Virus record (IMG/VR): IMGVR_UViG_3300033134_000381
Location: 1 to 31,584 of that record
Reading direction: 5' to 3' (one strand)
DNA: 31,584 bases
Source: a virus
The notes below the pieces were generated by a model. It saw nothing but the letters and a program-made list of their open reading frames with translations, was not told the origin of the DNA and made no database searches. The stretch's first letter is position 1. Every line of letters begins with the position of its first letter. A program made the translations under genes and the position numbers. This document shows, piece by piece, positions 10,361-28,800 of this stretch.

Positions 10361-11110
10361 ATGTTCGTATTCGGCTCGGGCGTGCTGACCGGCACGCAAT
10401 TGAATGTCGCGCCCCCAACCCCGATCAATTTCGGGCTGGTCCAGAAGGTCAGCGTCGACACGTCGGTCAGCGTCAAGGAACTCTACGGCCAATATGCGTT
10501 CCCGGTCGCCGTCGGATCCGGCACGCGCAAGGTGCAGTGCAAGGCTTCGCTCGCGCGTTTCAGCGGGCAGGCTCTCGGGCGCCTTTTCTACAATCAGGCG
10601 CCGAGCTCGGGCTCGACGATCTCCCAGTTCGCCGAGGTGCACGGCGTCCCCGCCTCCTCCCCCTATACCGTCACCGTGACCAACGCGACGCACTTCGTGG
10701 CTGACCAGGGCGTCGTTTACGCCTCGACCGGCCTGCCTCTCATCGCCGTCGCAACGGTTTCCGCCGCCGGTCAGTACAGCGTCAATGCAGCCACCGGCGT
10801 CTATACATTCTATTCGGGCGACTCGACGGCCAACGTCCTGATCTCCTACACCTACACGAACAGCTCGCAGGGCGAGTCTCTCGCCATCGCCAACCCGCTG
10901 ATCGGGCCGACGTCAACCTTCACCGCGACGCTGTTCGCGACCGACCCGACGACGAACGCGCAATTCTCGGTGACCCTCAACCAGTGCGTCGCCAGCAAGT
11001 TCTCGTTCGACACCAACATCGAGGACTTCTCCAAGCCGGACTTCGAGTTCCAGGCGTTCGCCAACGCCGCAGGTCAGGTCATGACCTTCAACTTCGGAGA
11101 CGCGGCGTGA
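10361..11110 (+). CDS. Major tail tube protein with inserted beta module
   Basis: The 249-residue protein is in the tail tube position, after the completion protein and before the chaperones. It is beta-rich, starting with GSGVLTGTQLNVAPPTPINF and a later VSVKELYGQYAFPVAV, and its C-terminal part (FSVTLNQCVASKFSFDTN...) fits phage tail tube proteins of this type. Residues about 109-170 contain the module shared with the connector and the hub (VVYASTG, AGQYSV, GVYTF, ISYTY), which would probably stick out from the tube surface. The stop overlaps the next gene's GTG start (GTGA at 11107-11110). Confidence 0.8.
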   Translation: MFVFGSGVLTGTQLNVAPPTPINFGLVQKVSVDTSVSVKELYGQYAFPVAVGSGTRKVQCKASLARFSGQALGRLFYNQAPSSGSTISQFAEVHGVPASSPYTVTVTNATHFVADQGVVYASTGLPLIAVATVSAAGQYSVNAATGVYTFYSGDSTANVLISYTYTNSSQGESLAIANPLIGPTSTFTATLFATDPTTNAQFSVTLNQCVASKFSFDTNIEDFSKPDFEFQAFANAAGQVMTFNFGDAA

Positions 11111-11754: not shown

Positions 11755-13065
11755 ATGGCCGACGCCAATGTCTCCGTCAGCTTCAGCGCTTCGATCGACG
11801 ATTTCGTCTCCCAAGTCGGCGAGGCGAAGGACGCTTTACAAACCTTCTCGGCGCCGTTCGGCGACATCAACCGACAACTGGCCTCGCTCGGGGCCGCCAC
11901 GTCCCAGGCCTTCAGCGCTGATCGTCTTGAGCCATATCGCGACGCTCTCACCGCAACCCAATCGCTCCAGCGGTCATTCGCCGCCGACAGCGCACGCGCC
12001 GCCGCGGCGCTGCGCGCCGGCGACGACGAGGCGTATTCCGACGCGATGAGGGCGGCGCAGCTCGCGACCTCGGAAGAATTGAGGATCCTGGCTGACGCGA
12101 CGAAGCAGAAGCTCACCCTCTATGCGGAGGAGGCGCGCTCCTACGAGATCACCCAGCAGCAGAAACTCGCGCTTTCGCAAACCGCGCTCGACCAGGAATA
12201 CGCTGCCGAACTCGCCGCATTGCAGCGCCGCGAGGCGCTCGGCGACCAGTCGCTGGCGGCCGCGCAGCGCGTCAACGACATGATCATCGAAGCGACGCGC
12301 CGCCGCGACGATGAGATGGCGGCGTTAACTCGCTCGTCTCTGCAGGAACAGGAGCGCGACTACCAGTCGTTCGCCAATTCGACCTTGCAGGCGTTCAACT
12401 CCCAATTGCGCGGACTGCTCTCGGGGACGGAGAACTGGCATGCGGCGTTCAAGAGTGTGCTCGACGACTTGCTGATCAAATTCATCGAGTGGTGCGAGAC
12501 CACGGTCGAGCATTACATCCTGGCGGAAGCGATGAAGACAGCAGCGACCAGCGCGGGCGTCGCGGCGCGAACGAGCGCGGAGGACGCTGGGGCGGCAGCT
12601 TCGATGGGCGCCCAAGGCGCAGCGATGATCCGATCTATCCTCTCTTCCGCAGCGGAAACTTTTGCCGGCGTGTTCGGTTTTCTCTCGCCGCTCCTGGGTC
12701 CGTTCGCAGCCGGCCCGGCCGCCGCGGCCCAAGCCACGGTCGCCGGCATGGCCGGCGCCGTCGTTTCTGCCGATATCGGCATGTGGCAGGCGCCACAAGA
12801 CATGCTGACCCTGATCCATCACAACGAACTCATCATGCCGCAGGCGGAGGCCGGCGCATTTCGGTCGCTTCTCACAGCGTCGGCGAACGGCGGTTCGCCC
12901 GGCGCATCGGTCGCCATTCATCCGACCACCAATTTCAATGTGTCCGCGCTCGACGGCGCGTCGGTCTCGTCCTGGATGCGTAGCAATGGCCCCGGTATGG
13001 CGAAGGCGCTTGACGAAGCCGTGCGCCACGGAGCCGCGCTCGGATTGAAGCGCCTACGCGGCTGA
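11755..13065 (+). CDS. Tail tape measure-like protein
   Basis: Located right after the chaperones, this 436-residue protein should set tail length and be released on infection. The N-terminal half is a long, largely uninterrupted helix (about 15-230), with many Ala, Gln and Glu. Around 265-350 there is an Ala/Gly-rich hydrophobic region (FAGVFGFLSPLLGPFAAGPA and after) that could act at the membrane. The C-terminal part has IHHNELIMPQAEAGAF and ends in a helical tail, as in tape measure-like minor tail proteins. At 436 residues it would specify a short siphovirus tail. The ATG at 11755 has AAGG at about 11740. Confidence 0.7.
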   Translation: MADANVSVSFSASIDDFVSQVGEAKDALQTFSAPFGDINRQLASLGAATSQAFSADRLEPYRDALTATQSLQRSFAADSARAAAALRAGDDEAYSDAMRAAQLATSEELRILADATKQKLTLYAEEARSYEITQQQKLALSQTALDQEYAAELAALQRREALGDQSLAAAQRVNDMIIEATRRRDDEMAALTRSSLQEQERDYQSFANSTLQAFNSQLRGLLSGTENWHAAFKSVLDDLLIKFIEWCETTVEHYILAEAMKTAATSAGVAARTSAEDAGAAASMGAQGAAMIRSILSSAAETFAGVFGFLSPLLGPFAAGPAAAAQATVAGMAGAVVSADIGMWQAPQDMLTLIHHNELIMPQAEAGAFRSLLTASANGGSPGASVAIHPTTNFNVSALDGASVSSWMRSNGPGMAKALDEAVRHGAALGLKRLRG

Positions 13066-15602
13066 TGGCGTCCGTCAATCTCATCGGCGTGCACCTGTTG
13101 CCGTCGACAGGCGAATTCGCCTACGACGTCTATCCCGCGGTCGGGGCGCAGCGCGGGCCGAGCGGGCTCGACAACCTCTCGGTCCAGAACTACTTCTCCA
13201 ACCCGAGCCTGGCGGGAAATGTCACCGATTACACCAATTCGATCGAGCAACTTCAGGCGCAGCATCCCGAGTGCATGTCGGTTTCAGTGGTCGTCGCGTG
13301 GTTTTTCGATTCGGAAGACGCCTCGACCTGTCAGATCTATCCATCGACCAATTTCATCCTCGGCGAGTTTCAACAGAACTCCGGCGCCGGGTTCACGCCC
13401 GTGCATTGGATGGTGTCGAGCCTAACCGAGCAGACCTACCCTGGCCTCATTCCGATCCCCGAAATTCCCAATGCTCTCGGAACTCCAGGCTTCGTTTACG
13501 GCGGCACGCCGTCCGACCCCAGCGTCGTGCGCTGCATCCGCGATCTGAAGGCGCGCGGTTTCAAGGTCGTCTTCTATCCGTTCCTGCTTGGAACGGGACC
13601 AGGCTTTCCCTGGCGTGGCCGCATCACCTCGCCGAACGACCTCTCCCAATTGGCGACCAATGACATCAATACGTTCATGGGCGGCGCGGCGGTCGGAGAT
13701 TTCACATCCGACGTTAGCGCGCTGACAGTCGCCTATTCAGGAAACCCGTTCGATTACACCTATCGGCGGATGATCCTTCACTACGCCAACCTGGTGACAG
13801 TCGCCGGCGGCGTCAACCTATTCGTCATCGGTTCGGAATTGCGCGGGCTCGAGATCCTGCGCGGGCCTGGCTGGACTCAGGCGGGAACCACGGACGGGTC
13901 GGGCAATGCGATCTGGGACTATCCGATGGTTGCCGCGCTCAACACGCTGGCGAACGATGTGCGCTCGACCTTCGACGCCGCTGGCTACGCGAAAGACGAG
14001 ACGACCTTCGCGAATCTCATCACCTACTCGGCCGACTGGTCGAGCTGGATGGGGTGGCAGCATCCGGGCGAGAACGGGCAATGGCCGCATCTCGATCAGT
14101 TGCGCGCCAACCCGAACATTGATTTCGTCAGCTTCGACAATTACCTGCCGCTGACCGACTGGACGACCGCGGGCAACGGCGGCCTCGACGGCGACGAATG
14201 GCTGACGCCGATCTATTCCGGCGCATGGCCACCACCTTCGGGATCGCTCAGCGGTCTCGGTCTCAGCGGTCCGCCCACAATCTACTCGATGCCCTATCTC
14301 AAGCTCGGGATCGAGGGCGGCGAGTATTTCAACTGGTACTACAACGATGGCGTGGCCGGCGCCCACGCGGCCTACGGCCTCGACCCGAACGGCTCTGATC
14401 TTCAAGTGACGCTGCCCGCCGGTGATCGTCTGGCGCAGGCGCGCAACCCATATTATCCCAATCAGCAGATCCTCGCCCCGAAGCAGCTACGTTGGTGGTG
14501 GAACAATCTCCATTACGCGGTCTATGCGACGGCAGAGAGCGGCGGCGCCTGGGTACCGACAGGCCCGCAGACGCAATGGGTTCCGAATTCGAAATCGATC
14601 ATCACGCTCGAACACGGCTTTGCTGCTTGCGACAAGGCGACGAACCAGCCGAACGTGTTTTACGACCCCAAAAGCACGGAGAGCGCGACGGCCTTCTGGT
14701 CGATCTGGGATCCGGCGAACAATCTCGGTTATCTGCCGCGGCGCGACGACACGATCCAGGCGATGGCTCTGGAGGCGGTCTACGAATATTGGAACGTCGA
14801 CGGCAATAACACGGTCGTCGGCGGCCTGCCGATGTTCAACTGGATGTTCTGTTGCGTCTGGAATTGGGACGCGCGGCCGTTCCCCACCTTCCCTGACCTC
14901 AACTCGGCGTGGGGCGATACCGGAAATTGGCAACAAGGCTTCTGGACCAATGGCATCAGGGACATGCTGCCGCCGCCCGCGCCGAGCCCACCGCCGTCGC
15001 CGGGGAGTTTCGCCACCTTTCCACCCCTGGCGACCCTCGGCTGGTCGACGCACGTCAAGCCGAAATTCTCGACGCTGATTGCGGGGCACGTTTCCGGGCG
15101 CGAGACACGGACGCAACGGTTTGCCAATCCCTACTTTGATATCGAATTGACCTACGAGGTTTTGCATTCCGATCTGGGCTATGCCGAGCTCCAATCGATC
15201 GCCGGCTTCTTTGAGGAAGCAAGCGGAGAGGATGCACCGTTCTGGGTCGCGCCGCCTGGCCTCAACGGGGCCACGGGCCAATCAATAGGGACAGGCGACA
15301 GTTCGACCACGACATTTCCGCTGGTCGCCTCGATCGGCGGCTATTCCGGGTTCGTCTATGGGACATCGGGCGTGGGCGCCGTCTATCTCAATGGCGTCGC
15401 GCAGGCCAGCGGCTGGACTGTCAGCGCGGGTTTCCTGCCGGCGATCACGTTCACGACGGCACCCCAATCGGGCGTCGTGATCACCGCGGACTTTGGAATT
15501 TTATGGCTCTGCCGGTTCGCCGACGACGTCCAGGACTTCGAGGAATTCATGTCGATGCTGTTCGAATTCCGAACCCTACGGCTTATGACGACCCGGCCGT
15601 GA
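13065..15602 (+). CDS. GTA_TIM glycosidase-like barrel fused to DUF2460
   Basis: Residues 1-630 match the TIM-barrel-like domain (GTA_TIM) normally found at the N-terminus of the GTA host-specificity protein. Blocks include VVVAWF near 75, GGTPSDPSVV near 147, LFVIGSELRGL near 253-263, IDFVSFDNYLPLTDW near 352, CDKATNQPNVFYDPKSTES near 522-540 and VWNWDARPFPTFP near 599. E258 and E516 stand where a clan-A glycosidase would have acid/base and nucleophile, so glycan cleavage is plausible but unproven. A Pro-rich linker (about 633-647) leads to residues 648-845, a complete DUF2460 domain similar to the next gene product. The ATG overlaps the tape measure stop by one base. It probably sits at the tail tip. 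Confidence 0.85.
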   Translation: MASVNLIGVHLLPSTGEFAYDVYPAVGAQRGPSGLDNLSVQNYFSNPSLAGNVTDYTNSIEQLQAQHPECMSVSVVVAWFFDSEDASTCQIYPSTNFILGEFQQNSGAGFTPVHWMVSSLTEQTYPGLIPIPEIPNALGTPGFVYGGTPSDPSVVRCIRDLKARGFKVVFYPFLLGTGPGFPWRGRITSPNDLSQLATNDINTFMGGAAVGDFTSDVSALTVAYSGNPFDYTYRRMILHYANLVTVAGGVNLFVIGSELRGLEILRGPGWTQAGTTDGSGNAIWDYPMVAALNTLANDVRSTFDAAGYAKDETTFANLITYSADWSSWMGWQHPGENGQWPHLDQLRANPNIDFVSFDNYLPLTDWTTAGNGGLDGDEWLTPIYSGAWPPPSGSLSGLGLSGPPTIYSMPYLKLGIEGGEYFNWYYNDGVAGAHAAYGLDPNGSDLQVTLPAGDRLAQARNPYYPNQQILAPKQLRWWWNNLHYAVYATAESGGAWVPTGPQTQWVPNSKSIITLEHGFAACDKATNQPNVFYDPKSTESATAFWSIWDPANNLGYLPRRDDTIQAMALEAVYEYWNVDGNNTVVGGLPMFNWMFCCVWNWDARPFPTFPDLNSAWGDTGNWQQGFWTNGIRDMLPPPAPSPPPSPGSFATFPPLATLGWSTHVKPKFSTLIAGHVSGRETRTQRFANPYFDIELTYEVLHSDLGYAELQSIAGFFEEASGEDAPFWVAPPGLNGATGQSIGTGDSSTTTFPLVASIGGYSGFVYGTSGVGAVYLNGVAQASGWTVSAGFLPAITFTTAPQSGVVITADFGILWLCRFADDVQDFEEFMSMLFEFRTLRLMTTRP

Positions 15603-15603
15603 A

Positions 15604-16221
15604 ATGACCGCGCCGCCGTCCTTTCCCACGCTCTCCGGTCTGGGCTGGAGTGTGCACAAAAAACCCGTCTTCTCGACCATTGTCGCAGGACACGTCTCCG
15701 GTCGCGAGGTTCGCCACGCGCTCTATCAGAACCCGATCTGGCAGTTCGAATTGGCCTTCGACGGCCTCGACTCGACGGCCGACACCTATCCGGGCCTGGG
15801 TCCAAATTCACTCCAGGCGCTGACGGGCTTCTTTCTTGACTGCCAGGGGCAATTTGGCACGTTCCTCTATGTCGATCCGACCGATTCCTCCGCGACCGGC
15901 GCCACCTTTGCAACCGGCGACGGGACGACTGAGAGTTTCACTTTCTCCCGTTACATGGGCGCATTTCTCGAGCCGGTGGGCTGGGTGACGAGTGTTTCGA
16001 ATGTCTACTTGAACGGCGTCAACCAGGCGTCGGGATGGTCGCTCTCTACTCCAAACAGCCTCGTGTTTACCTCTCCTCCAGGGTCCGGAGTCTCGATTGC
16101 GGCGACATTCGCCTATGCCTTCCAATGCCGGTTTGATTCCGACGACATGGATTTCGAGCAGTTCATGTCGGCTCTTTGGAAGGTGGACAGCCTCAAGTTT
16201 AAATCGGTGAGGACATCGTGA
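15604..16221 (+). CDS. DUF2460 tail tip protein
   Basis: This 205-residue protein belongs to the DUF2460 family, equivalent to GTA gp12, a distal tail component. Recognisable blocks are FPTLSGLGWSVHKKPVFST and IVAGHVSGREVRHALY near the start, GFFLDCQGQFGTFLYVDP, then ATGDGTTESFTF, VYLNGVNQASGWSL and YAFQCRFDSDDMDFEQFMSA. Each block has a counterpart in the C-terminal 200 residues of the preceding gene product, so the two are tandem paralogues. The gene starts two bases after the previous stop, and its stop overlaps the next start. Confidence 0.85.
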   Translation: MTAPPSFPTLSGLGWSVHKKPVFSTIVAGHVSGREVRHALYQNPIWQFELAFDGLDSTADTYPGLGPNSLQALTGFFLDCQGQFGTFLYVDPTDSSATGATFATGDGTTESFTFSRYMGAFLEPVGWVTSVSNVYLNGVNQASGWSLSTPNSLVFTSPPGSGVSIAATFAYAFQCRFDSDDMDFEQFMSALWKVDSLKFKSVRTS

Positions 16222-16412: not shown

Positions 16413-16537
16413 TTGCTGGCGCTGTCCGGAACTTGTTCTCGCGTCTCGCAACTGGCTTTGCGGCTGCGCGTTCGTTCCCTCGCCAAGACGCGCCGCGGCC
16501 CTGTCACCCATTTTGGGATAGCGGCTCGCGCCCATGA
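16406..16537 (+). CDS. Tiny coupled reading frame between DUF2460 and DUF2163
   Basis: The 43-codon frame starts with an ATG at 16406, inside the end of the previous gene (overlap 7 bases), and its stop overlaps the DUF2163 start in an ATGA arrangement. Its product is a short Ala/Arg-rich helix (AVRNLFSRLATGFAAARS) followed by a Pro-rich end. The tight overlaps on both sides favour real translation, at least as a coupling device that carries ribosomes to the next gene. No function can be given. Confidence 0.45.
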   Translation: MLIAGAVRNLFSRLATGFAAARSFPRQDAPRPCHPFWDSGSRP

Positions 16538-17403
16538 AGGCGACCACGACCGCCGTTCAAAGCCTTCTCGCCGCGTCAATGGCGGCGCCGGATGCGCCGA
16601 TCGCCTTCGCCGAGTGCTTTACCTTCCTCACGACGACGGGCGTCCAATACACTTGGACGAACGTCGACTATGACGTCGTCTACAACGGCTTCACATTCTC
16701 AGCGTCCGGTCCGCTGGTCTCGGGCCTGAAATACAAGGGGTCAGTCGGTCTTGAAGTTGACAAGCAGCAGATAACGATTGCGGCGCGGCCGACCGACTCG
16801 ATCAACACCGCTCCTTTCCTAGTTGCGCTCCGCGACGGCGCGTTCGACGGCGCGCCCGTCTACCGCGACCGGGTTTTCCTTTCCGCGCCCAACGGAAGCG
16901 TTGTCGGCGGGGTTCGAATGTTCCAGGGACGGGTCTCTACTGTCGACAGCGTGGGCCGCACTCAGGCAACTTTGACCGTCGCCAGCGATCTCGTGATCCT
17001 CGATTACGACATGCCGAGGAACCTGTTTTCGCCGACCTGCCTGCACACGCTCTATGACGCGGGCTGCGGCGTCATCCGCGGCACGTATAGCGTCAACGGG
17101 ACGGCCGAGGCCGGATCGACCTCGAACCTGATCCTGACGTCCGTCGCCCAGGTTGGCCACGCCCAGGGCTCGCTCGTTTGGACGTCGGGCGCCAACGCCA
17201 ACGTGCGCTCGACGGTCAAAAGCGTCACCGCCGGCTCGGCGCTCAACCTCATGTACCCGTTGCCGTTCGCGCCGGCTACTGGCGACGCGTTCACCGTTGC
17301 GTTTGGCTGCGACCACACGCAGGCGACCTGTCAGAGCAAGTTCAACAACCTCGCGAATTTCCGCGGCTTTCCATATGTGCCGCCGCCACAGCTTGCCTAT
17401 TGA
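16534..17403 (+). CDS. DUF2163/BR0599-family tail tip protein
   Basis: This 289-residue protein is equivalent to GTA gp13, part of the distal tail. The N-terminal ~170 residues fit DUF2163, with FTFLTTTGVQYTWTN and the SVGLEVDKQQITIA block followed by DGAFDGAPVYRDRVF. The C-terminal third has the Phage_BR0599-type signature GCDHTQATCQSKFNNLANFR followed by GFP, with paired cysteines, close to the end. The middle has two further cysteines (CLHTLYDAGCGVIRG). Length is normal for the family. The ATG overlaps the upstream stop by 4 bases. In GTAs this gene comes directly before the NlpC/P60 peptidase; here one 54-residue gene lies between them. Confidence 0.9.
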   Translation: MKATTTAVQSLLAASMAAPDAPIAFAECFTFLTTTGVQYTWTNVDYDVVYNGFTFSASGPLVSGLKYKGSVGLEVDKQQITIAARPTDSINTAPFLVALRDGAFDGAPVYRDRVFLSAPNGSVVGGVRMFQGRVSTVDSVGRTQATLTVASDLVILDYDMPRNLFSPTCLHTLYDAGCGVIRGTYSVNGTAEAGSTSNLILTSVAQVGHAQGSLVWTSGANANVRSTVKSVTAGSALNLMYPLPFAPATGDAFTVAFGCDHTQATCQSKFNNLANFRGFPYVPPPQLAY

Positions 17404-17414
17404 GGAATTAATTC

Positions 17415-17579
17415 ATGACGCCCGAACAGGCCGAGAAGATCATCAGGCTCCTTGAAGCGATCGACGCGAAGCTTGGGGCGCCTTCGAATCTGGCCTTTCG
17501 TCCGAATCCGACCTTCGATAACGCAGCGCCCACGCCGGCACCGGGCTATACGTTCACGATGGTCGTCGGCGCTCCTTGA
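17415..17579 (+). CDS. Small protein between DUF2163 and NlpC/P60
   Basis: The 54-residue frame starts at an ATG with GAGGAAT at 17403-17409, a good ribosome binding site. The N-terminal 22 residues form an amphipathic helix (PEQAEKIIRLLEAIDAKLG); the rest is Pro/Asn-rich and ends in a short strand (YTFTMVVGAP). The stop overlaps the TTG start of the peptidase gene, so translation of that gene probably depends on it. The family is not recognised. Confidence 0.6.
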   Translation: MTPEQAEKIIRLLEAIDAKLGAPSNLAFRPNPTFDNAAPTPAPGYTFTMVVGAP

Positions 17580-18028
17580 TCAGCGAGACTGAGGCGCGGC
17601 GCGCGGTCGTCGCCTCCGCGCGGTCGTGGCTCGGGACGCCCTACCATCATGCGGCGGATGTGAAGGGCCGAAATGGCGGCGTCGACTGCGCCATGCTGCT
17701 GGTGCGTGTCTATTGCGACCTTGGCCTAGTCACGCCTTTCGATCCGCGCCCCTACACCCGGGACTGGTTTTTGCATCGCAACGAGGAACGCTATCTCGGC
17801 TTCCTTCTCGCGCGATCGCACGAGGTTCGCTCTCCGAGGGAGGGGGACATCGTTCTTTTCCGGATCGGGCGCTGCTACGGTCACGGCGGGGTTGTCTCGC
17901 GTGCAGAACCGCTGGCGGTTGTGCACGCCTTCGCCAACGCACGCTGCGTCGTCGAGGACGTGATCGAGCGCAACGCGGAGTTGAGCGCTCGGCTCAAGAC
18001 GGCGAAATTCGCAAGCTATTGGGAATAA
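17576..18028 (+). CDS. NlpC/P60-family tail peptidase
   Basis: The 150-residue protein is equivalent to the GTA gp14 / phage cell-wall peptidase, which opens peptidoglycan during DNA entry. C38 in NGGVDCAMLL is the candidate nucleophile, H103 in YGHGG the base, and H117 (VVHAFA) a possible third residue. WLGTPYHHAADVKG before the cysteine and REGDIVLFRIG before the histidine are standard NlpC/P60 blocks. The frame begins at a TTG that overlaps the upstream stop (TTGA), which implies coupled translation; no in-frame ATG gives a complete domain. Genes for the tip proteins lie on both sides, as in GTAs. Confidence 0.9.
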   Translation: MISETEARRAVVASARSWLGTPYHHAADVKGRNGGVDCAMLLVRVYCDLGLVTPFDPRPYTRDWFLHRNEERYLGFLLARSHEVRSPREGDIVLFRIGRCYGHGGVVSRAEPLAVVHAFANARCVVEDVIERNAELSARLKTAKFASYWE

Positions 18029-18144: not shown

Positions 18145-20676
18145 ATGGGCTTCCTTCGCCGCAACGACAACGCCAAGCCGGATTACACGGCGCTCCAGCT
18201 CCAGACTTCGAGCTCGATCCTGCCTATTCCGATCGTCTGGGGTCAGACCAAGATTTCGCCGAACGTCCTATGGTACGCAAATTTCCAGGCAGTCGCGAGC
18301 AGTGGCGGCAAGGGCATTGGCGGCAAGGGGGGCCTCTTCGGCGGCAGCAGCGCAGCGGCGGGAGCTGATTACACCTATACTGCAGACCTGATCATGGGCC
18401 TTTGCGAAGGGCCGATCAACGGCGTCGGTCTGATCTGGAAAGATCTTTCGATCTATGCCCTTGCGGAGCTCGGACTGGGCCTCGAGAACGGTACGACGCC
18501 TCAAGCCGTCTGGTCCTATCTCGCAACCAATTACCCCTCCAACGCGCTTGCCTATCAGGGGACCGCCTATGCCTGGGGAGCCGGCTACAACCTCGGCGAC
18601 TCGGCGTCGATCGGCAACCACAACTTTGAGATTTTGGGCGTCCTTTCCGGTTCTGGTGTCAACGGGATCGACGCCAACCCCGCGCTGGTGATCCAGGACT
18701 TCCTGACCAACGCGCAATATGGTTGCGGCTTCGGCCCCGGCAGCATCGACTCGGGCTCGCTGCTTACCAATGCCGATTCGTTCCAGGCATACTGCTGGGC
18801 GATGGGCTATGCGTTTTCGCCCGCCTTGGTCAGCCAGGAACAGGCCTCGAGTATCCTTACCCGCTGGCTGCAGTTGTTCTCAACGGCGGCGGTATGGAGC
18901 GGCGGCCTGCTCAAGTTCATTCCCTACGGCGACACCGCGATCTCGCAGGGGACGGCGACAACCTATCAGACGCAGCTCTCGATCCCCTCGCCAATCCCGG
19001 CATCTTCGGGCGTCACACTGCCGGCTTATGTCACAGTCAGTGCCGCGTCGGCGTTCGTTTCCGACGGCGGTGTGGTCTACGCCTCTTCCAACATCGCTTT
19101 CACCTTCATCGGGGCGGCGATTCCAAGCGTCGCCGGCGAATATGGGATGGTGACGCCGGGCACATACATTTTCGGGCCGGCCGACCAGGGAAAGCCTGTC
19201 GTCATCACCTATACTGCCCAAGCGGCCGGGAGCTATACCCCGAACCTGACGCCGGTCTACGATCTGACCGACACCGATTTCATCGACGAGAGGGGCAACA
19301 AAGACCCGCTCACAGTCGAGCGGGCCGACATATTCTCACTGCCGACGATTCAGCGCATCGAGGTCTCATCTCGGGACAACCAATACAGCGCGACCCCGGT
19401 TGAGGCCCGCGACCAGTCGCAGATTGAGATTTTCGGCCCGCGCGTCGGCTCGACAATCCAGGCGCTCGAAATCTGCGACGAGTTCGTCATGGGGCCGCTG
19501 ATCGCGCAGACGATCTTGCAGCGCGAGCTTTATGTTCGAACCAAGTTCACTTTCAAGCTCTCTTGGGAGTATTGCCTGCTCGATCCCATGGATATCGTCA
19601 CCATCACAGATTCCAATCTGGGGCTGACTGACTATCCCGTTCGCGTCATCCAGATCGAGGAGGACGACAAGGGGCTGCTCGCTTTTACCTGCGAAGAGCT
19701 CGTGGCGGGCGTCTCCAATCCCGCTTTCTACGCGAGCGCCAGCGCGGGCGGCTTTCAGCCAAACCAGGGCGTGCCGGCGGTGCCGGTCAACACGCCGCTC
19801 ATTGTCCAGCCGCCGACGTCCCTGACCGGAGGGCTCAACCAGATCTGGGTCGGCGCGTCGGGGATCAACAGCGGCAGCGGCATGCAATGGGGCGGCGCCA
19901 CCGTCTATGTCTCGATCGACAACGTTACCTATTCGCAGGTTGCGGTTCTGACCGCGCCAACGCGTCAGGGCTTCCTCACCGCGGCTCTTCCCGCCGCGGC
20001 AGGATGGGATTCGATCGACACCCTCGCGGTCAATCTGGCCGAGAGCGGCGGCGTCTTGACGGGCACAAGCCAAGCTGCGGCGCAACAGGGAGCTACGCTC
20101 TCGATCGTCGATAGCGAATTTCTCGCTTATGAGACGGCGACACTCGTCTCAGGCAACGCCTACAACCTCACCGGCCTCGCGCGCGGGCAGGGTGGGTCGA
20201 CACCGACAGCACATCCGACAAATGCGCCATTCGCGCGCATCGACGGGGCGGTCATCCGATACACGCTGCCGGCCAATTTCGCCGGCCAAACGCTTTATCT
20301 CAAGTTCCAGAGCTTCAACGTCTTCGGCGGCGGCTTCGAAGACCTTTCGACCTGCACCGCCTACACCTTCACCCCTTCGGTCGCCACTGCGGACCCGATC
20401 TTCGCCCAGTTGCAGACCGGATTCGCGCTCGATCTCGGTCAGGTCACGGACGCGCCGACCGTATCTGATGACTGGGGCCCGGTGACGGCTGCGGCGATCT
20501 CGTCGCTCGATCTCGGCTCGGTGGCGGTCACAGTCTCCGATCCGATTGCTGTCCAGCTCTTGAGTGGAACCCCGCTCGATCTCGGTATGACGACGAGCGC
20601 GGTGACGGTTTCAGATGATTTCGGCTCGACCAACGATGCTGTGGTCGACGTGATTGACTTAGGGACAGCGCCATGA
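18145..20676 (+). CDS. Tail hub/host-specificity protein (GTA gp15-like, without its TIM barrel)
   Basis: The 843-residue protein occupies the hub position after NlpC/P60. The N-terminal part (ALQLQTSSSILPIPIVWGQT, YTADLIMGLCEGPI) is the typical start of phage tip proteins. Residues about 440-560 fit the Phage-tail_3 domain (QRELYVRTKFTFKLSWEY, LLDPMDIVTITD). In GTAs the homologous protein carries the GTA_TIM barrel; here that barrel is in the gene at 13065. Residues about 300-360 contain the module shared with the connector and tail tube. Residues 660-740 (LAYETATLVSGNAYNLTGLA, RGQGGS) are the usual receptor-side region. The last 85 residues hold LDLG/TVSDD repeats. Confidence 0.85.
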   Translation: MGFLRRNDNAKPDYTALQLQTSSSILPIPIVWGQTKISPNVLWYANFQAVASSGGKGIGGKGGLFGGSSAAAGADYTYTADLIMGLCEGPINGVGLIWKDLSIYALAELGLGLENGTTPQAVWSYLATNYPSNALAYQGTAYAWGAGYNLGDSASIGNHNFEILGVLSGSGVNGIDANPALVIQDFLTNAQYGCGFGPGSIDSGSLLTNADSFQAYCWAMGYAFSPALVSQEQASSILTRWLQLFSTAAVWSGGLLKFIPYGDTAISQGTATTYQTQLSIPSPIPASSGVTLPAYVTVSAASAFVSDGGVVYASSNIAFTFIGAAIPSVAGEYGMVTPGTYIFGPADQGKPVVITYTAQAAGSYTPNLTPVYDLTDTDFIDERGNKDPLTVERADIFSLPTIQRIEVSSRDNQYSATPVEARDQSQIEIFGPRVGSTIQALEICDEFVMGPLIAQTILQRELYVRTKFTFKLSWEYCLLDPMDIVTITDSNLGLTDYPVRVIQIEEDDKGLLAFTCEELVAGVSNPAFYASASAGGFQPNQGVPAVPVNTPLIVQPPTSLTGGLNQIWVGASGINSGSGMQWGGATVYVSIDNVTYSQVAVLTAPTRQGFLTAALPAAAGWDSIDTLAVNLAESGGVLTGTSQAAAQQGATLSIVDSEFLAYETATLVSGNAYNLTGLARGQGGSTPTAHPTNAPFARIDGAVIRYTLPANFAGQTLYLKFQSFNVFGGGFEDLSTCTAYTFTPSVATADPIFAQLQTGFALDLGQVTDAPTVSDDWGPVTAAAISSLDLGSVAVTVSDPIAVQLLSGTPLDLGMTTSAVTVSDDFGSTNDAVVDVIDLGTAP

Positions 20677-20689
20677 AGGATCAAACCAT

Positions 20690-21544
20690 TTGAGCGAGCA
20701 ACTCCAACTTCGCCGCGGCACGTCAGCGCAGGTCGCCGCCTTCACTGGGGCGCAGGGCGAGACAGTGATGGATACGACCAACAATCGACTGGTCGTCAAC
20801 GATGGCGCGACCGCCGGCGGCTGGCCGGTCGCCAAACTCGCCGAGGTCGTCACCAACGGGCGCACGGCGGTATCGGACGCGGCCTATACGGCGCTCGAGA
20901 CTGATCGCATGATCGCCTACACGGCGCTGACCGCCGCCCGCGTTGTCAGCCTCCCCGCTGCCTCCGCCTATCCGACCGGCACTCGGCTGATTGTGGTCGA
21001 TGAGACGGGCAATTGCTCGGTGACCAACACTCTCACCATCGCGCCAAACGCCACGGACGCGATCGACGGCGCAGCATCCGCAGTCCTTAATGTCGCTTAT
21101 GGTTATATCGGCATCGAGAGCAACGGGGCCGGCGCCTGGACGGTCACCGATCAGGGCTTCATGCCGGCGCTCGCGTTCGTCGCCGCCGCGGCGCATGGCG
21201 CCAGTGTCCAGATCGGTATCCTCGAGACGCTCGTTACACTTTCGGGCGCGTCGACCAGCGGTAGCGTGCAAATCCCCGCCAACTGCATCGTGCTCGCTGT
21301 CGGCGCGCGGGTTGTGACCGCCATCTCCGGCGCGACATCCTATGAAGTCGGGGTGTCTGGGAATCTCTCGCAATTTGGCTCGGGCCTCGCGATTGCGACC
21401 GGTTCGACTAATTACGGCCTTATCGGCCCGACCGCTTTCTATTCACCGACGACGCTGACAATCACCGCAACTGGCGGCAGCTTCAGCGGTGGCCAGGTCA
21501 GACTGTCGATCGCATACATGCTGGCCAATCCGTCGGCGGCCTAA
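20690..21544 (+). CDS. Tail fibre/adhesin with Mtd_N-like N-terminus
   Basis: Residues 1-48 (LQLRRGTSAQVAAFTGAQGE, MDTTNNRLVVNDGATAGGWP) match the small N-terminal domain that attaches many phage tropism determinants and fibres to the tail. The rest of the 284 residues is beta-rich, Ala/Gly/Ser/Thr-rich and ends in VRLSIAYMLANP, compatible with a receptor-binding or trimer-forming region. It starts at a TTG at 20690 with GAAGGAT a few bases upstream; an ATG at 20673 in another frame makes only six codons. No reverse transcriptase or variable repeat is seen nearby, so tropism switching is not suggested. Confidence 0.7.
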   Translation: MSEQLQLRRGTSAQVAAFTGAQGETVMDTTNNRLVVNDGATAGGWPVAKLAEVVTNGRTAVSDAAYTALETDRMIAYTALTAARVVSLPAASAYPTGTRLIVVDETGNCSVTNTLTIAPNATDAIDGAASAVLNVAYGYIGIESNGAGAWTVTDQGFMPALAFVAAAAHGASVQIGILETLVTLSGASTSGSVQIPANCIVLAVGARVVTAISGATSYEVGVSGNLSQFGSGLAIATGSTNYGLIGPTAFYSPTTLTITATGGSFSGGQVRLSIAYMLANPSAA

Positions 21545-21575: not shown

Positions 21576-22829
21576 ATGAATCGTATAATTCTCGCCGCGC
21601 TGCTGGCGGCTGGCGTCGCCGTGCCCGCGCACGCGCAAACCTATCAGGATTCCGGCGGCACGGTTGTTCCGGGAGTCGTGCCGATCCAGCCAGGCGTCGG
21701 GCCGCTGTTTACTTCGGCCAATCCCGGCAAGATATCCGGCTCGTTTTCGGCCTCCCTGACCGGCTTTCAGCCGACACCATCCTATGCGTCGCTTTCAGTT
21801 GGCGCGACGTCCAACCGTGTTGCGTTGCCGAGCGGAACCGTCGTCGTCGTCTACAATACTGGCGCGAACGCAGCTTATGTGACCATTGGCGGCCCCAGCG
21901 TCACGGCGACCACATCCGACGATTTCGTGCCTGCTGGCGGCTGGATGGCCTTCTCAGTTGGCTCCAGCACGTACTTGGCTGGAATCGAGACCGCTGGCGC
22001 GAGCACACTGAACCTTTCAGGCGGCTCAGGCCTGCCCACCGGAGCCTGCTGCTCCACCAGCGGCGGCAGTGGGTCGAATGCCTCGGTCGGCGCGACCGGA
22101 GCTGCAGTTCCCTCATCCGCGACGCTCGGCGGCATGAGTGTCGGCGGCACGATGACGGCGCTGCTTGGAACGTCAAATGGCCTCAAGGTCGACGGCTCCG
22201 CGGTCACGCAGGCCGTCTCCGCCGCGAGCCTGCCGCTGCCATCGGGCGCGGCGACGGCTGCCAATCAAACCTCCTGGCAGGGAGCAACCGGGAGCTCGGT
22301 CCCGACTAATGCGGCGCTCGTCGGCGGCAACCTCGGTGGCGTTCTGACGGCGCTGCCGATGACCTCGAATGGCCTCAAGGTCGACGCTTCGGCTGTCACG
22401 CTCAATGTCGCCCATCCGACCGTCGGCTCCAGTGGATCGTCGGTCCCAAGCAGCGCAAGCTACGTTGGCGCGAACAGCGGGGGCAACCTCGTCGGGATCA
22501 TTCAGGCGAACGCCTCGGTTCCGATCAACATCTCGACGGCCACAACGACCCAGCTCGTACCGGCATCCGGATCGACCAAAATCTACGTAACTTCCTATGG
22601 TCTGCTTGCGGCGGGAACCGGCAACCTCACGTTTGAATATGGAACGGGATCAAACTGCGGGACGGGGACGACGGCGCTGACCGGCGCCTTCAATCTGACA
22701 GCGCAGGCGGGCGTTACGCAGGGCAGCGGCCTCGGCCCGATCCTCGTCGTGCCGGCCGGCGACGCGCTTTGCGTCCTGACCACCGCCGCGGTGCAGATGA
22801 GCGGCAGCGTCGCCTTTACCCAGTTCTGA
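21576..22829 (+). CDS. Repeat-containing adhesin with a signal peptide
   Basis: The 417-residue protein begins with a clear Sec signal peptide (MNRIILAALLAAGVAVPAHA, likely cut before Q21). The mature part is beta-rich. Two tandem units of about 60 residues between 170 and 290 each contain a VP..A...GG...TAL...SNGLKVD.SAVT pattern, followed by a diverged third. The C-terminal ~105 residues form a compact domain with NLTFEYGTGSNCGTGTTALT and a final CVLTTAAVQMSGSVAFTQF, with two cysteines. I take the ATG at 21576 because it gives the signal peptide; the frame is open further upstream. Its position suggests a fibre, but the signal peptide would send it to the periplasm or surface. Confidence 0.7.
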   Translation: MNRIILAALLAAGVAVPAHAQTYQDSGGTVVPGVVPIQPGVGPLFTSANPGKISGSFSASLTGFQPTPSYASLSVGATSNRVALPSGTVVVVYNTGANAAYVTIGGPSVTATTSDDFVPAGGWMAFSVGSSTYLAGIETAGASTLNLSGGSGLPTGACCSTSGGSGSNASVGATGAAVPSSATLGGMSVGGTMTALLGTSNGLKVDGSAVTQAVSAASLPLPSGAATAANQTSWQGATGSSVPTNAALVGGNLGGVLTALPMTSNGLKVDASAVTLNVAHPTVGSSGSSVPSSASYVGANSGGNLVGIIQANASVPINISTATTTQLVPASGSTKIYVTSYGLLAAGTGNLTFEYGTGSNCGTGTTALTGAFNLTAQAGVTQGSGLGPILVVPAGDALCVLTTAAVQMSGSVAFTQF

Positions 22830-22855
22830 ACGCAATGGACGGCTGGCAGAACCTC

Positions 22856-25800
22856 ATGCTGAGAAAATTCATCGCCGCCATCGCGGCCCTCATTTTCGCA
22901 GGCGTCGCGCCCGCCGAGGCCACCTCTATCACGCTGACCGGCGCCGGGGGCGTGTTCATCGGCTCGGGGCCGCTCTCGCCGCCGGCGATCACGCCGCAAG
23001 TCTCCGCGGCGTTCGACATCAATTCGGTGCTCGGCTCTGGCAACAACGCCCTCACCATGCCGGCGTCCGGCCCGACGGAGCTTCCCGCGACGCCGTCGAA
23101 TTCATGGTACATGACGGTCGAGGGCACGATCGACGCCAACCTCAGCACCTCGCAGACCGGCACCGAATATGCGCTGGCGAACTCGAACGCCTATGCGCTT
23201 CTCAGCGTCTTTCCGGCCACCGCCGGCTCGCCGGAATTCACCAGCCAATTGCGCTATGACGGGACAGCGTTCGCCTGGTGGTACGGAACGCCCGGCATCA
23301 ACCTGCCGCCCGCTGTCTTCCCGACCGCCGCCGCCACATCCAACACCAATCCCGGCCTCTATCAATGGACCGGCCAGGGCGGAAACTGCGCCCGCGAGCC
23401 GTCCGGCTATTTCGGCCCGACCGTCGGAGAGTTCGGCATCGCCGATCCCGGCTTCGGCTGCGTATTCACCCCGGCGGTGGTCATAGCGTCGATTCCGGGC
23501 TTCGGCATGCAGCAGACGCTGTCGACCGGGGCGACCTCGTGCGTCAGCAATTCGCCGGTCTCCGGCGAGATGACGGTGACCACGACGGTCGGCGTCGCCC
23601 ATGGCGTCTATCCGGGCGGGAGCTTCACGCTCTCCGGCTTCACCGGCGCCGGCAACACCGGGTATAACGCAACCTATAACGCGCTGATCGGCACGACCGG
23701 GACCACGCTCGTCGGCGAAGCGACCGGGAGCTGCCCGGCGAACAGCCCTGACACGTCCGGCGGCCTCGCGCTGTCGGGGACCGGCGGCGCGGTCACCATG
23801 CCCTCGACGACCAACACTCTCGCGGCCCAGGCCGGCCAGGGCATCACCACCCACGCGAACCAGAAGTTCTCCTGCGTCATCGGCGAGTTCGGCGCCGATT
23901 CGGCGACGCCCGGCGTCGCGTTCTCCCGCTGCGTCGACGGCAAGACCGGCAGCGATCTCTACGGCTCGCCGGCGGTGGTCAACACGGCCCTCAACGAAGG
24001 GGCGAGCAACTTCACCGGCTACGTGCTGGGCCTGGGCTCGAGCGGCTCGGCCCCGGAGCAGGACACCAGCTTCCCGGTCACCGCCTCGATCTCGGCCGCC
24101 GGCGTGATGAATGTCACCGCCAACACTTTCACGAGCAGCGCAACGGTTAACGGCACGACGACGCTCACGACGAGCGGCACGCCGACGGGCGTCATCGCGG
24201 TCGGCATGACGGTGACGGGAACCGACATTCCCGGCGGAACGACGATCACGGCGCTCGGGACGGGCACTGGCGCGGCCGGAACCTATACGATGAGCCAAAG
24301 CGCCACTGGCTCCTCGTCGATAACAGCCACGTTTGCTGGCGTGCTTTCCGTCGGCCAGACGGTCACCGGCCCGTCGCTGCCGCGAACCACCATCGCCTCG
24401 CTCGGGACGGGAACCGGCGGGACCGGCACCTATAACCTCGCCGCCGCGCAGGCCGGGCCGCTGGCGTCGGGGACCTATACCGTCCACACCTACGCGCCGG
24501 CGCTCGACGTCACCGCGCTCAATTCCTATTCGATCAGCGCGGCGAGCTGGGCTTCGACCGGCAACGGCCAGGCGACCTTCACCACGACCGCCGCGCACGG
24601 GCTCGTCCCCGGCTCGGTGTTCACCGTCTCCGGCGTTTCGCCCAGCGGCTATAACCAGACCTATATCGCGCTCGCCGGGACGACCGGCTCGACTCTCGTC
24701 GGCGGCGAGATCACCAGCACGTCCAGCATCACGCCGGTCGCGCTCGCCAATCCCGGCGCCTATTCCTCCGGCGGCTCAGCCTCGCCGAATATCGAGCCGG
24801 GCATGATGATCACCGGGACGACCGGCTCGGCCCTCATCTCGCCCTATGGAACCTATGGATCGAGCGGGACCGGCGGGACCGGCTCCTACGCGCTCAGCGC
24901 CAACCAGGGAACCTGGACGATCACCGCCGGGACCGGCGGCGTCGCCAGCACGTCGCTGGTCGTCGCGACCCAGGGGGGAACCGGCTCTTACGAATTCCTC
25001 GCCGCGGGGGTCGGCCTCACCGGCTCGGGCGTCAGCGCTGGAACCTACATCCAGACCACTGTGAATGGCGGCGGCGCTGGCGCCTATACGCTCAACCAGA
25101 ACGCGACCGTCTCGACCGGCACGACGCTGACCACGACCGGAAATATCTGGTCCTCGTCCTCGCCGGGCAATCTCTACGCCGCGCCGCCTTTTTATTACCA
25201 TCCGCTGCCCAACACCGCGGCCTACGGCGGCTCGCTCAGCACCCACACGCAAACAAATTTCGGCAACATCGTCGGCCCGGTCGGATCGGAATACGCCACC
25301 TCGGCGAGCGGCGACCATCAGTGGGGCGGCTCGCTCGCCAATGTCGGCATGCACTGGACCGTCTTCCCGCAGAACCCGCCAGGATCGTCCGACGGCGCAG
25401 GCAATCCGTCGCTGACCGCGCTGCAATCGATCGCCGAGAAGACGACCGATTTCCTCGCCCTCGACAGCGCCAACGGCGGCTCGACGCAGTCGATGTATCG
25501 CCTGAGCGACACCGGCATCTGGGGCGACTCGAGCAACGCGACGATCACCGGCTATATTTCGGGCGCGAGCGGCGCGACGGCGACCCTCAACGTCTCCTCG
25601 ACCGTGCTCGGCTCGCTGGCGCTGGCGACGGGAACGGAGACCGCCTATCTCACCGGCCCTGGCCTCAACGGCGGCCAGGGGGCTTATGCGACGCTGCCGC
25701 TGACCACGACGGGATCGTCGACCTACACGCTCACCTTCTCGTCCGGGACGGCCGCCAATCTCGGCTCGTCCGGCTCGCCGGTCCAGTTCAACGTCGGGAA

Positions 25801-28800
25801 GCAGAAGCCGCTCGGCGTGCAGGGCAACGGCCTGATCACCGGCTACCTCACCGCCTCGGGCGGCTCGGGGCCCTGCGCCTCGGGGCCGTGCCTGCATGTC
25901 ACCGGCTTCCAGACATCGAGCCAATACTGGGCCGGCACGGCGTCGCTCTCGGGGACGGCGGGGACCTACCAGGACACGCTCACCATCAACTCGACCACCA
26001 CCGGGACCCCGGCGATCGGCGATCTCTGCTTCGATTCGACCCCGACCGACCTCACCGGGCCGCCGCTGGCGATCGCCGCCGGGACGACCTCGCCCTATAC
26101 GGTCGGCAACAATTATTATCTCGCGGGCTTCACCAGCGACGCAAACATGTATTGCACGCTCGCCCAGGTGACGCCGAACCAGTATCTTCTGAACGCCGGC
26201 CTCGCCACGCCGGTCATGGTCACCGGCTACGCCAACGGGTCGCAGGGCGGCCTCGGCGACTACACGATCTCGACCGCCGCCAACGGCGCGGTCGGCTCGT
26301 CCGGCTCGCCGGTCAACATCACGCTTTCCGGCGTTTTCGGCGGCGGCGCGCCGTCGCCCGGCCCGGCGCTCACCATCGCCGATCATGGGCCGGGTACGAC
26401 CTACGCCATCACCAACCGGCCGACCGCGAGCCCGACCGGCTCGATCCCGCTTTCCGGGACCTACAGCACGGCGAGCCTCGGCGGAACGCCGTCGGCGATC
26501 CAGGCGCAGCTTTCGCTGACCGCGAACGGCCCTGCGGTCAGCGGCTTCTCGTGGGCGAACCTTTCGTCGCAGACGATCGGCTCCGGAAACTGGTCGGGGA
26601 CGATCACCGGCGTGCCGCCGGGCGAATACTGGGTCTCGGTCCGGGCGGCGAACGGCACGGCCTATGCGACGCTGCCGAACGTGATCATGGTCGGCGATGT
26701 CTGGACCCTGACCGGCGAGGGCAATTACGGCAGCTGCACCGGGACGCTGGGCGGAAGCGTCGCCGCGACCAACTGGGGCTTTTTCGACGGCTCCGTCGTG
26801 CTTGGCTTCACCGATCCGATCTTCGGCCCGGCGGTGATCAACGACCTCAAGCCGTCCTCGTCGCAGGCGGCGCTCGTCAACCGCTACTCCCCCGGCGGCA
26901 CGGTCGCGGTGCTGCCGGAATGCACGATGAACCAGGCGCAGACCTGGTGGAACCTGGCCGGGACGCCGCTCGCGCAGCTTTACCTCATCCGCAACGGCAC
27001 CGGCATCGGCCCGGACCTCTGGGGCAACCAGTCGCAGGTCCAGACGCTCGGGATCGGCGACGGGACATCGACGACCTGGTGCTCGTCGGCGAGCCTCTGC
27101 GCCAACGATTCGTCGAGCCTCTTGACCTTCAACGCCGCGAGTTTGAGCGGCGCGCAGATCACCGGCTACGTGACAACCTCGGGCGGCGTCTCGACGCTCA
27201 CCGTCAGCACCATCATCGGCGCGCTCGAACCGGGGCTCATCCTGTCCGGCTCCGGCGTCAGCGGCTCGCCGACGCTCGTCGCCTGCAAGGTGGTCTCGTC
27301 GAGTTCGTGCAACTTCAACTCGAACGAGAGCGGGACCGCGATCGGATCGAACTGGCTCATTTCCGCCAATCTCGGCACGATCGGCTCCTCGGGGAGCCCG
27401 GTCGCCTTCACCCTTACCCCCTCGGGCGGCGCGGCGCTGCCGAACGGCAACCTGAATGCAACCGGCACTGGCCCGGTCGGCAGCTTCTCGACCAGCGTCG
27501 CGGCAAGCGTGCTTTATGGCTGGAACACGATCGCGCCTGGGACCTTCTCGGTCAGCGTCAACGGGACGGTGGTGTGCTCCGACACGACCGCCTTCTCCTA
27601 CACCGTGGCGTCCGGCCAATGCGCCGGCGCGGGAATCGCCAGTTCGTTCATCAATTACGGGACCGGCGCCTACGAGATCAATTTCTCCTCGCCGCCGGCA
27701 AGCGGCGCGGCGATCAACGCGACCTGGACCACCATCATGTCGGCCGACAATACCGGCGGCCCGGAGCTGGTCGACTGGTTCGGAACGAGCACGAGTCCGA
27801 CGAGCGGCCTCTGGGCGAGCGCGTTCGACAAGGCTCCCGGCGGCCCGTCGGCCAACGTGTTCGGCGGCTGCGGCTCCGACTGGGGTCCGGCTCAGACGAG
27901 TTCCTTCGGCTATCCGCGCTGGGCGATTGGCTACACCCAGCAGCTCGCGGAACTCTACGGGACCAAGGTTCCGGCGATCTTCCCCGGCGCGGTCTCGGCC
28001 CCCCTCCTGATGGCGGTCTACTGGCGCAACGACGGGCCGAACTGGGCGGACAACGGGACTTATGCGACAGCGTGGGGCGTCGGCAGCATGGCCTGCGACC
28101 AGTGGGCGCGCGACGCGACGACCTCGTCGCATTTCACGGGCTATGTCACCGCCGGCGGAACGCCGACGCTGACCCTCACCGCCGCCGCATCGGGGCCAAT
28201 GTGGGAAGGCGAAGTCATTGGCTGCAACCCCTATAGCGCTGCCTGCGCGCTGCCGGTCGGAACCTGGATCACCGGGCTTTCGAGCGGGACCTGGGGCGCG
28301 AGCGGGTCGGTCTATTCGCTGACCGCGCCGCTCGGCTCCTCGACGATCACCAGTTACGGCTCCTCTGGCTCGCCGGTCGCGATGCTGAACGAGGTCTATT
28401 ACGGCGACGCGCCGGAAAGCCACGGCGCGCCGGGCTATTTCGTCGGGCCGTTCAACGACAATTCGGTGCAGGAGACCGGCGGCGTCGGCGGCCTTGCGCT
28501 GCATCCCGCCGCCGGCATCGCGGGCGGCCGGCGGATCGGAACGCGGATCGCTGCGTTAGCGGCCGGGCCGCTCAGCGCCAATCCGAGCCTCACCGCGGCG
28601 CCGACGCTGTCGCGTTCGGTCAGTGGACCGGGAGCGTGCGATTCCTCGGCGACGACCTCGCCCTGCTTCGATGTCTCCGCAGCCTATCAGGCCTCGGCGA
28701 GCGCGACCTGGAGCGGCTCGACGGTGACGATCAGCGGGGGCTTGTCGGCGCACGCCCGGCCGTTCGTCGACGGCATGGCGATCTCCTGCTCGGGCTGCAA

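Follow-up and report, generated by a model that had tools for sequence, protein, structure and literature searches.

A GTA-type TIM barrel fused to a Dit-family tail protein in uncultured soil phages and Beijerinckiaceae prophages

A barrel and a Dit domain in one gene

The DNA analyzed here, which we call the window, is the whole 31,584-base IMG/VR virus record IMGVR_UViG_3300033134_000381. Its tail-tip genes run in the order tape-measure-like (11755), fused barrel-Dit (13065), plain Dit (15604), gp13-like (16534), NlpC/P60-like (17576) and hub (18145), and these genes, with the parts of them given below, all lie on the plus strand. Our subject is the fused gene (13065-15602, 845 amino acids (aa)), whose ATG overlaps the stop of the tape-measure-like gene and which joins the barrel of gene transfer agent (GTA) tail tips, Pfam family GTA_TIM, to a DUF2460 domain, the domain of the distal tail protein (Dit). 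The barrel takes up residues 1-635 (13065-14969), a Pro-rich linker residues 636-651 (14970-15017), and a Dit domain that we call 'a' type residues 652-841 (15018-15587). Pfam matched GTA_TIM (PF13547) to residues 231-610 over the whole model (positions 1-299 of 299, E 3.4e-87, 293 bits against a gathering cut-off of 27), and the barrel match reaches further back with PHROG 4271 (residues 6-630) and the NCBIfam model of the megatron, the GTA hub protein that normally carries this barrel (from residue 7). DUF2460 (PF09343) matched residues 652-841 (E 1.1e-26, 94 bits, cut-off 30.4) at model positions 5-202 of 205, and the same domain finds the Dit of phage R4C (8gtc_G) by Foldseek at E 1.2e-8. 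The linker reads LPPPAPSPPPSPG at about residues 635-648, and residues 632-644 have low predicted local distance difference test scores (pLDDT) in the structural model described below.

The original prediction, made from the sequence alone, had placed GTA_TIM motifs in residues 1-630, followed by a Pro-rich linker and a full DUF2460 domain, and had read the hub at 18145 as lacking the barrel. The profile searches bear out each of these points, with GTA_TIM present in the first 630 residues of the fused protein and only Phage-tail_3 and Rcc01698_C, but no GTA_TIM, in the 18145 product. A barrel hidden in that hub is ruled out by Pfam and by its colinearity with the barrel-less hubs of Polewnik, KT1 and Acinetobacter phages. 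What had been missed is a standalone DUF2460 gene directly downstream of the fusion (15604-16221, 205 aa; E 8.9e-40, 136.8 bits), a second, 'b' type Dit that is 41% identical to the fused domain and its sister in the Dit trees. Neither the fused protein nor the hub is a megatron, because both fall below the 800-bit cut-off of the megatron equivalog NF048004, at 372 and 131 bits respectively. Both Dits likewise stay under the 136.65-bit cut-off of the Rcc01695-type Dit model TIGR02217 (fused 29.4 bits, solo 34.5 bits).

The fusion is a real and conserved arrangement. An alignment-based scan counted 273 related stretches and the best 80 of these 273 were taken; the 88 loci compared here comprise the window, viral-contig relatives and one genome locus, with L020 and L033 representing one Methylocapsa sp. 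S129 prophage. Barrel and DUF2460 share a single open reading frame (ORF) in 84 of the 88 loci, and a second DUF2460 lies immediately downstream in 82. The exceptions are three loci cut by contig ends and L032, which has a Dit without a barrel. None of the hubs found in the 88 loci contains a barrel. All 22 relatives scanned by profile match both GTA_TIM and DUF2460. Finding the same ORF in 84 loci from many metagenomes, and also in genomes, rules out a chance or assembly artefact. For the barrel, both kinds of Dit and the hub, most pairs give a ratio of nonsynonymous to synonymous substitution rates (dN/dS) of about 0.1-0.2, and the highest value is 0.31 (fused Dit, L011 versus L014); these ratios exclude a decaying fused Dit and indicate that the fusion is under purifying selection.

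Two Dits lie side by side in most of these loci, and the arrangement of their parts varies. In the window and most relatives the fused Dit carries an insertion domain (about residues 737-815, 15273-15509, by alignment) and its neighbour is a plain Dit. In L029 and L166-L175 the fused Dit is reduced to the ring core, and the plain neighbour retains the insertion domain. In L031 and L164 the Dit that shares a frame with the barrel is of the b type, and it is the only Dit seen there; L165 is laid out in the same way except for a break in the frame. The fused domains of L031 and L164 group with plain Dits in trees, so the barrel appears to have moved between paralogs, and from the latter two arrangements it follows that the barrel plus the Dit ring core is the constant, persisting element. 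As a separate matter, a larger plain Dit, of 323-386 aa, occurs in L119, L121, L134, L147, L152, L154, L160 and L166-L169; at least in L166-L169 the extra length is an addition within the insertion domain. In L019 (2625-3797), L021 (5667-6830) and L022 the fused and plain Dit genes are separated by an additional ORF of about 385 aa or by a gap of about that length; the L021 ORF has no Pfam match.

The fusion is carried by a large family made up of uncultured phages from soil and of prophages in Beijerinckiaceae. By our count, 31 of 248 sampled genomes of the Methylocapsa family have barrel and Dit in one open frame, 18 of them plus G001 with the insertion domain and 12 with the core only. An order-wide sample of 397 genomes gave the fusion in a single one, a Methylocapsa; that sample was spread thin, which accounts for the lone match, and sampling the family changed the picture. 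In a collection of 50,697 phage records no match extends over 80% of the query, so that no known isolate among them has the fusion, and all barrel matches in phage records whose neighbourhood was inspected are megatrons, except in the jumbo phage LucasX. We found no description of a GTA_TIM-DUF2460 fusion in the literature. As far as the literature searched shows, the fusion is widespread yet apparently undescribed.

Fold and conserved glutamates of the barrel

The fused protein was modeled with AlphaFold2 (AF2) from 113 sequences (pLDDT 82.7, predicted template modeling score 0.74), and this model replaced a poor first one from 22 sequences (pLDDT 62). By DSSP, residues 8-602 of the model make up a complete (beta/alpha)8 barrel, whose strands, beta1 to beta8 in our numbering, are at residues 8-12, 72-81, 167-176, 252-257, 318-323, 355-359, 512-517 and 597-602. 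The top VIA-align match is the R4C megatron (8gtc_M, Z 32.0 over 508 residues at 34% identity). Next come the beta-mannanases of glycoside hydrolase family 113 (GH113), with Z 23.4-25.4 over about 290 of about 310 residues, below which scores fall to Z 14.6 for the next family. Retaining glycosidases of clan GH-A have two glutamates, at strands 4 and 7. The modeled barrel has the clan GH-A fold and, by position only, the corresponding residues at the ends of those strands: E258 (codon 13836-13838), the putative acid/base, directly after beta4, and E516 (codon 14610-14612), the putative nucleophile, at the end of beta7. Neither varies across 91 sequences from two tail contexts, 53 of them fused proteins and 38 megatrons, and the same is true of R235, H239, D324, W325, D358, W479, W505, K510, N527, N530, D602 and R604, and the equivalents of the two glutamates are identical in RcGTA. 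The GH113 profile matches 15 of 22 relatives at E 0.01 or better, L029 reaching 27.3 bits. Glutamates conserved at the strand 4 and 7 positions support an active site and, short of proof, point to catalysis.

It is also possible that the barrel has lost enzyme activity and serves on the Dit as a lectin-like binder or a structural spacer. We take this possibility seriously without favoring it. The barrel, one of three protruding domains of GTA-type tips, has no known activity in any of them; a 2026 preprint states that its exact function remains unknown (PMC13420450), and several RcGTA tip domains are treated as oligosaccharide binders by the authors of its structure (PMC7296036). But binding alone would not obviously explain why both E258 and E516 are kept, together with many polar residues, throughout the 91 sequences, and the nearest enzyme fold of the barrel is, by a wide margin, that of GH113.

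Some database names are misleading here. The family PHROG 2913 and the proteins UOF81680.1 (L035) and WBC28292.1 (L036) are named 'glycoside hydrolase', yet they have only a DUF2460 Dit domain, and we discarded the PHROG 2913 name as evidence for an enzyme, the family being DUF2460.

Origin of the fusion

The fusion barrels form one clade (support 100), set apart by a long branch from the other barrels in the tree, namely those of 36 megatrons, three standalone ones of podophage type and that of LucasX; two rows of the clade carry the label 'megatron' but belong to fusions truncated at contig ends. In the hub tree, 32 megatrons are split with full support from a group of 24 fusion-phage hubs and six barrel-less isolate hubs. 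The isolate hubs that group with the window hub are those of Brevundimonas, Pseudomonas KT1 and Acinetobacter phages, and the hub of the Brevundimonas phage Polewnik is sister to the fusion-phage hubs (support 92). GTA_TIM was absent from all six isolate records, searched anywhere in the record. The Dit trees make sisters of the fused-Dit and plain-Dit clades (support 86, and 92/85 in the careful tree), with isolate and megatron Dits outside, and an approximately unbiased (AU) test rejected joining the fused Dits to the isolate Dits (p 0.033). On these trees, the best-supported order would begin with a hub already barrel-less, followed by duplication of the Dit and then by the gain of a barrel by one copy.

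The original prediction had the barrel moving from the hub to a different ring of the tail tip. That it sits off the hub, on a ring (Dit) domain, and is conserved there stands; its departure from this hub does not find support in the hub tree or in the isolates without GTA_TIM. We consider it likely that the fused gene is instead a modified Dit: in a siphophage lineage with barrel-less hubs, the Dit gene would have been duplicated, one copy would have gained at its N terminus, through a Pro-rich tether, a barrel of GTA type (GH113-like, with the clan GH-A fold), the second Dit would have retained its insertion domain, and the ring-borne barrels would act on host glycan. Several results weigh against this account. 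The window protein scores 13.7 bits with the GH113 Pfam profile, for which the gathering cut-off is 27. The L164 and L165 contigs, which seem to carry a single Dit, are partial or frame-broken, and a further Dit may lie elsewhere. An AU test did not reject a tree that joins plain and isolate Dits and leaves the fused Dit outside (p 0.098), and the support behind duplication followed by fusion is the 92/85 of the careful tree.

A true relocation would start from an ancestral megatron that bore the barrel, which was cut from the hub and joined to a Dit, with the barrel-less Brevundimonas, KT1 and Acinetobacter hubs descending from the same ancestor and later losing the fusion. The N terminus and the C-terminal domains of the hub are indeed homologous to the megatron regions that flank the barrel, and the R4C megatron domain that follows the barrel has the Dit core topology (PMC10276861), such that a barrel-then-Dit-like order would have been kept. 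We nevertheless think relocation unlikely: it needs fusion losses in several lineages, with no GTA_TIM in any sampled member; the best Dit tree dates the a/b duplication after the split from the barrel-less phages; and the fusion barrels are not nested among the sampled megatrons. Arrival of the fused gene ready-made, as a foreign a-type Dit with its barrel beside a native solo Dit, is permitted by the AU result that groups solo Dits with those of barrel-less phages and would suit the long branch of the barrel clade, but seems improbable given that a and b are sisters in the best trees (92/85) and that the collections searched held no a-type Dit donor outside the lineage.

Apart from the fusion lineage, detached GTA_TIM genes occur in podophage-type regions, which is why we regard the barrel as a mobile module. 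In such regions, three loci (L099, L100 and L102, in G074, G140 and G031) encode GTA_TIM as a standalone protein about 714-758 aa long; the L102 gene stands directly 3' of a head-closure Hc3 gene, in a cluster of podophage type. In the Xanthomonas jumbo phage LucasX (L098, 6290-12355), GTA_TIM lies toward the N terminus of a protein of 2021 aa whose gene stands beside ribonucleotide reductase genes, outside any tail module with a Dit.

Tail-tip setting and comparison with known systems

The genes around the two Dits fit a GTA-type tip. Upstream is a C-terminal tape-measure-like protein (11755-13065, 436 aa; phrog_2854, E 3e-13). Downstream are a gp13-like hub/adaptor with phiJL001 Gp84 N-terminal and BR0599 domains (16534-17403; TIGR02218, E 8e-28, above cut-off), a gp14-like NlpC/P60 cell wall peptidase (17576-18028; TIGR02219, E 1.3e-13, below cut-off, with a weak Pfam NLPC_P60 match) and the barrel-less megatron-like hub (18145-20676), which has an adhesin-like N terminus, Phage-tail_3 and Rcc01698_C by Pfam, NCBIfam and the hub tree. 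This hub holds an insert of about 90 aa (18949-19218, residues about 269-358) that is absent from the L020, L031 and Polewnik hubs and resembles part of the virion protein encoded at 10361-11110 (37% identity over 120 aa, E 8e-10). Right after the hub, 20690-21544 encodes an Mtd_N domain (major tropism determinant, N-terminal), and beyond the tail genes a 2380-aa ORF (22769-29911) has no Pfam or PHROG match.

Virion placement and barrel count we infer from homologous particles. In RcGTA and R4C a Dit hexamer connects the tube to the hub and the megatron, each present as three chains, and differences between its odd and even subunits accommodate the threefold baseplate (PMC7296036, PMC10276861). 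By analogy, its Dit core would most likely place the fused protein in the ring or rings between tail tube and hub, with the Pro-rich tether keeping the barrels outside the ring. There they might bind a glycan on the host surface, or cut it, and so let the tip reach the outer membrane, after which the hub and the NlpC/P60 peptidase would act as in other GTA-type tips. Six barrels would result if every subunit of a ring were fused, as in the loci with one Dit or in a stacked second ring, and three if the paralogs alternate. The original prediction expected the move to change the number of barrels; it need not, since a second, barrel-free Dit is kept and a mixed ring of three fused and three plain subunits would have three. 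Such alternation could serve the step from sixfold tube to threefold hub, with the barrels in register with the hub, though we regard this as a doubtful proposal. JBD30 meets the same six-to-three mismatch with a trimer of two-domain Dits (PMC11445458), from which we conclude that a threefold Dit layer is workable.

The fusion makes the role of the barrel easier to test. In the solved particles the barrel is part of a large trimeric protein and is awkward to handle alone; on a small ring protein, which in some groups is the sole Dit found and in others a core-only Dit, it could be produced, mutated and deleted without touching the hub. The fusion also shows that modules of GTA-type tips are able to occupy a different ring, and prophages of the Methylocapsa family offer a defined system in which to ask how Dit copies are allocated at the six-to-three symmetry step.

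The closest relatives of the two halves come from RcGTA and R4C. The megatron (gp15, NF048004) shares the barrel family, the two conserved glutamates and the tail-tip gene neighbourhood, but has its barrel inside a trimeric hub protein of roughly 1300 aa, whereas here it is N-terminal on a Dit and the hub has none. The Rcc01695/R4C Dit (gp12) shares the DUF2460 family, the position after the tape measure gene and, in 8gtc_G, the Foldseek match; known Dits of this kind are single and about 200-215 aa long, whereas here there are two, one with a barrel of about 635 aa. For the barrel itself, the nearest solved enzyme folds are the GH113 beta-1,4-mannanases AaManA and BaMan113A (about 292 residues, Z about 25), which likewise show the clan GH-A placement of glutamates, at the ends of strands 4 and 7; the fused barrel differs in its 16-20% identity by structural alignment, its large loop insertions and its attachment to a tail protein. 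By hub, the closest isolated phages are the Brevundimonas phages Polewnik and Strzyga (42% identity). Polewnik has one Dit, its sole DUF2460 (L038, 5128-7578), fused N-terminally to a Gly-rich domain (PF12810) and repeats, and no GTA_TIM in its record, so N-terminal additions to this Dit family are found in more than one case. The evolved Dits of lactococcal, streptococcal and lactobacillus siphophages also put a carbohydrate-related module around the ring (PMC7291167, PMC10688798), and the fused protein may work like an evolved Dit (PMC7291167) while falling outside that definition, which calls for a carbohydrate-binding module inserted in loops of the galectin domain. Those phages infect Gram-positive hosts and have binding modules placed within the peripheral galectin domain, whereas the present ones, phages of Gram-negative Alphaproteobacteria, have a whole enzyme-like barrel attached at the N terminus of a Dit that lies beside a plain one.

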